Origin: Myxococcales bacterium
GTDB lineage: Bacteria > Myxococcota_A > Polyangia > Polyangiales > Polyangiaceae
Length of the DNA stretch: 51,219 nucleotides
Direction of reading: 5' to 3'
Assembly (NCBI GenBank): GCA_947473045.1
Contig: CANJCO010000035.1
Location: 1-51,219, forward strand
Of this stretch, positions 50,410 through 51,219 are shown piece by piece; within the stretch, counting starts at the first letter, position 1, and every line of letters starts with the position of its first letter. Below the pieces are notes generated by a model. That model worked only from the letters and a program-made list of their open reading frames with translations, ran no database searches and was not told where the DNA came from. The position numbers and the translations under genes were made by a program.

Positions 50410-51060
50410 ATGCCGCCGCCGCCTGAATCGATCGACGAGCTCCTCGCGCGAGCGCGGGCCCTCGCGGGGCTCCGCGTCTCGCAGTTCGCCGCCATTCGCG
50501 GCGCGCCCCTGCGCACGAAAGGGAAGGTCGGCGAGGCCCTCGAGCGGGCGCTCGGCGCGTCGCCTGAGCGCGGCGCCACGCTCGATTTTCCACAGCTCGG
50601 CGTGGAGCTCAAGACGGTGCCGGTAACGCCCGAAGGCCGGCCGCGCGAGTCGACGTTCGTCTGCGCCGTGCAGCTCTCCGATGCCGACCGCGCCGAGTGG
50701 GAGTCGTCCTGGGTGCGCGCAAAGCTCGCGCGCGTGCTGTGGATTCCCATCGTGCATGACGCTTCGGGAGACAAGACCGTGGGACACGCCGTGTTGTGGT
50801 CGCCGTCGGCCGATCAGCAGGCGGTGCTCCGCGCCGACTTCGAAGAGCTGCTCGGCACGATCGCGATCGGAGGCATCGAGGGCGTCACCGCGCACATGGG
50901 ACGCTGGCTGCAGCTGCGTCCCAAGGCCGCCGACGGCCGCGCGCGCACACTCGCCCTCGGCCCCGACCAGCAGCTCGTCGCGACCACGCCGCGGGGCTTC
51001 TATTTGCGCACGCGATTCACAGGCGCCCTGCTGCGCGATCCGCTCGCGCTACCCGAATGA
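50410..51060 (+). CDS. mutH: MutH-family DNA mismatch-repair endonuclease
   Basis: MutH nicks the unmethylated strand at hemimethylated GATC sites in methyl-directed mismatch repair. The 216-residue product matches the enterobacterial protein (229) along its length: 'LRVSQFAAIRG', 'FPQLGVELKTVPVTPEGRPRE' in part, 'VRAKLARVLWIPIV', 'LWSPSADQQAVLRADFEELL', 'LQLRPKAADGRAR', 'TPRGFYLRTRFTGALL'. The active-site set is intact with exact spacing: E45, D59, E66, K68 correspond to E56, D70, E77, K79. The start is ATG at 50410; longer frames upstream overlap the secreted protein. No mutS, mutL or dam gene is in the window. A Sau3AI-type restriction enzyme is a less likely alternative given the size. 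Confidence 0.88.
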   Translation: MPPPPESIDELLARARALAGLRVSQFAAIRGAPLRTKGKVGEALERALGASPERGATLDFPQLGVELKTVPVTPEGRPRESTFVCAVQLSDADRAEWESSWVRAKLARVLWIPIVHDASGDKTVGHAVLWSPSADQQAVLRADFEELLGTIAIGGIEGVTAHMGRWLQLRPKAADGRARTLALGPDQQLVATTPRGFYLRTRFTGALLRDPLALPE

Positions 51061-51066
51061 AGCCAG

Positions 51067-51102
51067 CGGCCTGCTAGCAGGCCGTTGAAGAACGGCCTGC
51101 TA
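51067..51102. repeat. Overlapping perfect palindromes after mutH
   Basis: An 18-bp perfect palindrome (51067-51084, centre GCTAGC) overlaps a 12-bp-arm hairpin TAGCAGGCCGTT-GAAG-AACGGCCTGCTA (51075-51102). The two structures are mutually exclusive, as in a switch. They begin 7 bp after the mutH stop. Confidence 0.85.
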
Positions 51103-51113
51103 TCCTTTCATCT

Positions 51114-51135
51114 CGGGGAGGTATGCACCTCCCCG
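51114..51135. repeat. Perfect hairpin CGGGGAGGT-ATGC-ACCTCCCCG
   Basis: Arms of 9 bp and a 4-nt loop, directly abutting the next hairpin. Confidence 0.85.
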
Positions 51136-51160
51136 CCCCGAAAAACGCGGTTTTTCGGGG
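51136..51160. terminator. Bidirectional terminator-like hairpin CCCCGAAAAAC-GCG-GTTTTTCGGGG
   Basis: Arms of 11 bp with a 3-nt loop. The A5/T5 tracts lie inside the stem rather than after it, so it is not a textbook rho-independent terminator. Placed after mutH it could still stop or protect transcripts from either side. Confidence 0.5.
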
Positions 51161-51174
51161 TCCCCACCCCACGC

Positions 51175-51219
51175 AATTGACTTCGCCAATTCCTAGCAGG
51201 GTGTTTTTCAACACCCTGC
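51175..51219. repeat. Stem-loops running off the right edge
   Basis: AATTG-N7-CAATT (51175-51191) is followed by GCAGGGTGTT-TTTC-AACACCCTGC (51196-51219), preceded by CTA. The latter repeats the plan of the hairpin at 51075-51102 (TAGCAGG...GTT-N4-AAC...CCTGC), so both belong to one repeat family. The window ends at the last base of the arm. Confidence 0.8.

Follow-up and report, generated by a model that had tools for sequence, protein, structure and literature searches.

The array of hairpins at positions 51075-51219 of the 51,219 nt window (the whole stretch of DNA that was analysed, which is one whole contig, G000:C35, 1-51219) is best explained as a non-autonomous IS5-type MITE, a reading to which we assign a probability of roughly 0.88. 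The repeat has a high copy number, defined ends and YTAR edges, the same ends occur on an insertion sequence (IS), and its core covaries strongly across the Polyangiales. The structure of this core may be useful. In the mechanism that we propose, a 366 aa IS5-family transposase, whose gene lies on another contig (G000:C83), would recognise the terminal repeats GCAGGSYGTTGAARAA, each of which is doubled into a palindrome in the element, and would insert the element at YTAR with duplication of the TA. The core would, as a best guess, be a module that folds as RNA or as single-strand DNA, which may render the element tolerable, or stable, where it inserts beside gene ends, or may help it to replicate, and which would be kept even as the ends are exchanged from lineage to lineage.

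Six inverted repeats had been reported within 51067-51219 by an earlier note made from the sequence alone, and every one of them was found at those positions (Table 1), with the apparent stop in mid-structure being the end of the contig. The element proper comprises 51075-51219 and a final TA beyond the contig end, giving ~148 bp in full. The minimum-energy fold of 51075-51219 consists of five separate adjacent hairpins on either strand, and also when DNA parameters are used, with z-scores of -9.3 (RNA, + strand), -7.7 (RNA, - strand) and -11.6 (DNA) in a control of 200 dinucleotide shuffles, none of which (0/200) folded as well on the + strand. The AATTG-N7-CAATT repeat has decayed from AATTGGC-TTC-GCCAATT, a form that sister copies have kept intact. 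A search of Rfam gave no match at gathering level, with sbcD below threshold (27.7 bits, cut-off 40). The 18-bp palindrome represents the junction of the element with the remnant of an older half-hairpin, and since the left neighbours are unrelated in most other copies, with only a few having such a half-hairpin, the mutually exclusive "switch" previously read into the first two structures is an accident of the place where this copy landed, and not a property of the element.

Table 1. Features at the right-hand end of the window, with positions in the window
Feature	Position	Strand	Description
MutH-like gene	50410..51060	+	Mismatch-repair endonuclease (PF02976, E 1.5e-23)
Older half-hairpin	51059..51074	+	Probable remnant of terminal half-hairpin GAAGCCAGCGGCCTGC (cf. 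GAAGCAGCGGCCTGC in other copies)
18-bp palindrome	51067..51084		Perfect
Left terminal palindrome	51075..51102	+	TA + inverted repeat GCAGGCCGTTGAAGAAC, 12-bp stem, GAAG loop; whole repeat TAGCAGGCCGTT-GAAG-AACGGCCTGCTA; 51075-51076 presumed duplicated TA of YTAR target
Linker	51103..51113	+	TCCTTTCATCT; TTTCAT/TGTCAT motif found again in many family members
Core hairpin 2	51114..51135	+	CGGGGAGGT-ATGC-ACCTCCCCG; best-conserved part, 98% of cells paired (53 sequences)
Core hairpin 3	51136..51160	+	CCCCGAAAAAC-GCG-GTTTTTCGGGG; arms co-vary between genomes
Unpaired linker	51161..51174	+	TCCCCACCCCACGC, conserved
Core hairpin 4	51175..51191	+	AATTG-N7-CAATT in this copy
Right terminal palindrome	51194..51219	+	TAGCAGGGTGTT-TTTC-AACACCCTGC, with inverted repeat GCAGGGTGTT-TTTC-AACACCCTGC at 51196-51219; outer TIR GCAGGGTGTTGAAAAAC reads inward on minus strand

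A search of the genome, which belongs to the Polyangiaceae (Myxococcota), identified 40 near-full copies with 95-100% identity over ~145-157 bases, as well as some older or partial ones. Contig ends hold 34 of the 40 best copies, which explains why the window stops at the element. With a tolerance of two mismatches, 140 forward and 145 reverse occurrences of the palindromic hairpin CGGGGAGGYRYGCRCCTCCCCG were counted (pattern counts, in which one copy normally matches on both strands), with 0 occurrences of the reversed control. Several age classes were recognised, with at least two near-identical young subfamilies, one being that of the window and the commoner one having the form 'TAGCC..GGCTT..ACTAT', next to diverged older copies (L186-L198). 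Young copies start with TAGCAGGCCGTTGAAG and end in ...CAACACCCTGCTA, and the outer hairpins form terminal inverted repeats (TIRs) of the type TA-GCAGGSYGTTGAARAA whose outer edges read YTAR. The left TA was preceded by C or T in 30/31 distinct flanks (C in 26/31), and the right TA was followed by G or A in 20/20 flanks, edges which resemble the known IS5 target rule (PMC3281130). The presence of TA with Y/R neighbours on both sides of the element, as read from the flanking bases, suggests that TA may be duplicated on insertion. At 148 bp, with ~140-145 copies and sharp TA boundaries, the element is short, non-coding, of high copy number and has defined ends, as is required of a MITE.

Two loci (L019, 338-601, and L011, 339-559) carry a young copy in tandem with an older, diverged copy, which suggests that existing copies may be preferred landing sites. 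At the start of contig G000:C54, an IS701-family transposase gene (L212, 238-1476, minus strand, 385 bits) directly adjoins a copy of the element. No match to the element was found in the plasmid collection, and we found no description of this repeat in the literature.

The core, made up of three hairpins and CCCACCCCACGC, extends well beyond this genome. Scanning genome contigs with hairpin 2 detected it in the Polyangiaceae MAG ACE_MYX3 (~50 copies), NC_groundwater_781, Minicystis rosea (one copy), Labilithrix and others, several of which have completely different terminal palindromes. Matches to the hairpin-2 pattern in Acetobacteraceae, Gaiellaceae, Actinobacteria and Pseudoxanthomonas were simple palindromes that lacked the remaining parts of the core, and were taken as chance. 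With a covariance model of the core (threshold E <= 1e-4), matches were obtained in 32 of 183 Polyangiales genomes, 27 in the family of the host and five in other families. Nearly all of the 39 further copies that we read had one order, consisting of terminal palindrome, TTTCAT-like linker, hairpin 2, hairpin 3 (CCCC..GGGG), CCCACCCCACGC and hairpin 4, and the left palindrome was, for example, CTAAATGACCGAGC..GCTCGGCCCATTTAG in G078, CTAGAACGCCGATC..GATCGGCGTTCTAG in G087, and AAGAGCTGTCGA..TCGACAGCTCTT (end type AGAGCTGTCGAA) in both G030 and G049.

The arms of hairpin 2 varied from GGGGAGGC/GCCTCCCC to GGGGCGGC/GCCGCCCC, GAGGGGGC/GCCCCCTC and GGGGAGTC/GACTCCCC, and hairpins 3 and 4 changed almost fully in sequence with pairing retained. 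In an alignment of 53 distinct sequences, for which the structure was specified by hand and the sequences then re-aligned, compensatory (double) changes were present in 22 of 27 pairs, with 188 double-changed cells versus 61 in shuffles and a covariation score of 0.334 versus 0.134 for shuffled and <=0.107 for slid controls; these values come from a model-fitted alignment and are to that extent biased towards the structure, but they exceed the controls by a wide margin, and the changes can be seen directly in the unfitted sequences. The core therefore has a conserved secondary structure with compensatory changes, as is required of a structured RNA, and the earlier proposal of a compact multi-hairpin RNA may hold, in that the core covaries very strongly. 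RNAalifold on a MAFFT alignment (A1) yielded spurious pairs, because the register of hairpin 3 slips between genomes. In one locus (L077, G005:C11), the stem of hairpin 3 (CCCCAACACTATTCGC..GCCGGTTTTTTTGGGG) is greatly lengthened, apparently through insertion, and in one copy (L131/L154, G001) hairpin 3 is lost with hairpin 2 and the hairpin 4 region kept, a natural deletion of one stem.

The conserved pairing could also arise without selection, if the arms are kept complementary by quasi-palindrome correction (template switching during replication), which would make the core a passive filler. The terminal palindromes, which also change wholesale between genomes and still remain perfect or nearly so, behave as would be expected of such a process, but filler should decay or be deleted, and the order, spacing and unpaired motifs of the core (TTTCAT, the hairpin-2 loop and CCCACCCCACGC) are kept across genera and families despite the replaced ends. 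We consider such correction a possible but doubtful explanation, and favour, with modest confidence, a selected folded module, because the unpaired motifs and the spacing are conserved along with the stems. Core neighbourhoods comprised 12 convergent, 17 tandem and 4 divergent gaps, versus 30/67/33 for all gaps, counts which derive from a rough ORF caller and are indicative only. Near gene 3' ends the core could end or protect transcripts, or it could aid replication or transposition as single-strand DNA. A more specific version, in which a selected RNA or single-strand DNA module crossed the Polyangiales by acquiring the terminal repeats of resident transposases, is put forward tentatively.

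The genome has one IS5-family transposase gene, the single-copy 366 aa gene mentioned above, with a score of 273 bits (cut-off 140) to the IS5_4 model and DUF772 and DDE_Tnp_1 domains. It is bordered by C-TA-ACAGGACGTTGAG and TTTCAACACCCTGC-TA-A, 1,341 bp apart. Homologues in the Polyangiaceae genomes G066, G090, G091, G093, G070, G033 and G011 have the borders CTA-GCAGGCTGTTGAAA and TTCAACAGCCTGC-TAG or close variants, a comparison which covers the borders that could be seen. The end motif was matched 15 times in 11 loci versus 0.005 expected from shuffling, and was matched at none of 27 other DDE_Tnp_1 loci. Full terminal hairpins, TAGCAGGGTGTTGCAGAACACCCTGC and GCAGGCCGTTCTGCAACGGCCTGCTA, enclose a transposase remnant in G011. 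The element therefore shares its TIRs with an autonomous element, an IS5-family IS which occurs both in this genome and in related ones. We conclude from these sequence comparisons that the outer hairpins represent IS5-type terminal repeats doubled into palindromes, and the 366 aa transposase is the most likely agent to have moved the element in trans.

Counting against this, no close homologue of the 366 aa transposase was found in G001, G005 and G006, which have the same end type, and both G006 and G005 do have other DDE_Tnp_1 genes. Among the DDE_Tnp_1 genes of 10 genomes, there was no transposase that matched the other terminal types (G030, G049, G078, G087 and G167), and the IS5 link is thus shown for the GCAGG type of ends only. 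In G084, two loci (L235, L248) retain a short 3' part of this same IS5-family transposase, with in-frame stops (57-64% identity over ~45 aa), and one of them has CACCACCCTGCTAG downstream.

The presence of ~140-145 copies with defined ends, a YTAR site and a matching IS5-family transposase bears out the composite mobile repeat or foldback MITE of the earlier note, and the single copy lacking covariation that it had allowed for is contradicted on both counts. The REP/BIME-like repeat that it had named first, moved with a RAYT, is not supported. A REP/BIME (REPIN) would be mobilised by a RAYT, a tyrosine transposase that works on single-strand hairpins, and the short palindromes in many intergenic copies, the inverted doublets and the solo palindromes of G007 do look REP-like. 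However, the ends equal the TIRs of IS5-family elements, and Y1_Tnp (PF01797) was absent in G000 and in its close relatives G001, G002, G005 and G006, which have the core as well, in a search which finds PF01797 in E. coli and 12 relatives. RAYT-associated REPs have an unpaired GT(A/G)G head (PMC2817692), and there was no such head 5' of the hairpin, where pairing of the palindrome (TAGCAGG..CCTGCTA) starts at its very first base. We consider this origin very unlikely. The solo palindromes in G007 (L068, L072, L075 and L078) are 24-28 bp long, of the same terminal type (TAGCAGG..CCTGCTA / GAGCAGGGTGTTGAAAAACACCCTGCTC) and without the core, are intergenic beside gene ends, and are possibly minimal elements consisting of two terminal repeats back to back.

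An IS630/Tc1-mariner system (a RUP or Correia-like MITE) also targets TA/CTAG, and would fit the TA flanks and the CTAG preference, but DDE_3 (PF13358) is absent from the tested carriers (G000, G001, G005, G006 and G030) and the transposases with these ends are of the IS5 family, leaving hardly any weight on this alternative. Since the IS5-family ends match, and neither RAYT/Y1 nor IS630 was found, we prefer a MITE moved in trans; the earlier reading as a mobile repeat is right in kind and wrong in family, the element being an IS5-type MITE and not a REP/BIME.

The element begins 14 bp past the stop codon of the MutH-like gene, is GC-rich and forms hairpins, and many copies abut gene 3' ends, all of which would suit an ordinary transcription terminator cluster of this gene, but ~140-145 dispersed copies in the same genome, the absence of the array beside the MutH gene in 11 relatives, the lack of a T-run right after the GC-rich hairpin 2 and the location of the hairpin 3 T-run inside its stem refute this as the origin, which we regard as scarcely credible, with a terminator effect possible as a side function. 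For the MutH orthologues of these 11 relatives, neither core nor ends were detected within ~1.5 kb, consistent with insertion in this lineage.

The element resembles IS5-family IS (NCBIfam NF033581, IS5_4 type) and their MITEs in its GCAGGSYGTTGAARAA terminal repeats, its YTAR/TA site and the transposase with the same ends, but it shares only the ends, each of which is doubled into a palindrome, and in none of the loci examined does its 100-bp interior derive from an IS. With REP/BIME/REPIN repeats and their RAYTs it has in common that it is intergenic, of high copy number, hairpin-forming and sometimes present as solo palindromes, whereas it has DDE-type terminal repeats, no GT(A/G)G head and no RAYT/Y1 gene that we could find. 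Correia/NEMIS, RUP and ERIC are structured bacterial MITEs with the same size range, terminal repeats and strong predicted fold, and with a target duplication such as is presumed for the element. As far as is known, the fold of structured MITEs is mainly the pairing of their two ends, whereas that of the element is a row of local hairpins, with a conserved core between unrelated ends in different genera. Similar properties are found in the Coxiella QMITE2, with a length of 100-200 bp, terminal repeats, target duplication and a strong predicted RNA fold (PMC10969869).

The conserved, covarying core between lineage-specific ends is what is unusual about this element. Bacterial MITEs are usually viewed as decayed insertion sequences with a meaningless interior, whereas in this element it is the interior that is conserved and the ends that vary, so that the contribution of structure to the success of MITEs can be tested. 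The assembly of this genome is broken mainly by the element, which can also readily serve as a marker of mobile activity in myxobacteria that have not been cultured. If the core did cross the Polyangiales by acquiring resident terminal repeats, one conserved parasite, or a domesticated 3'-end element, would be wearing different 'ends' in each lineage.
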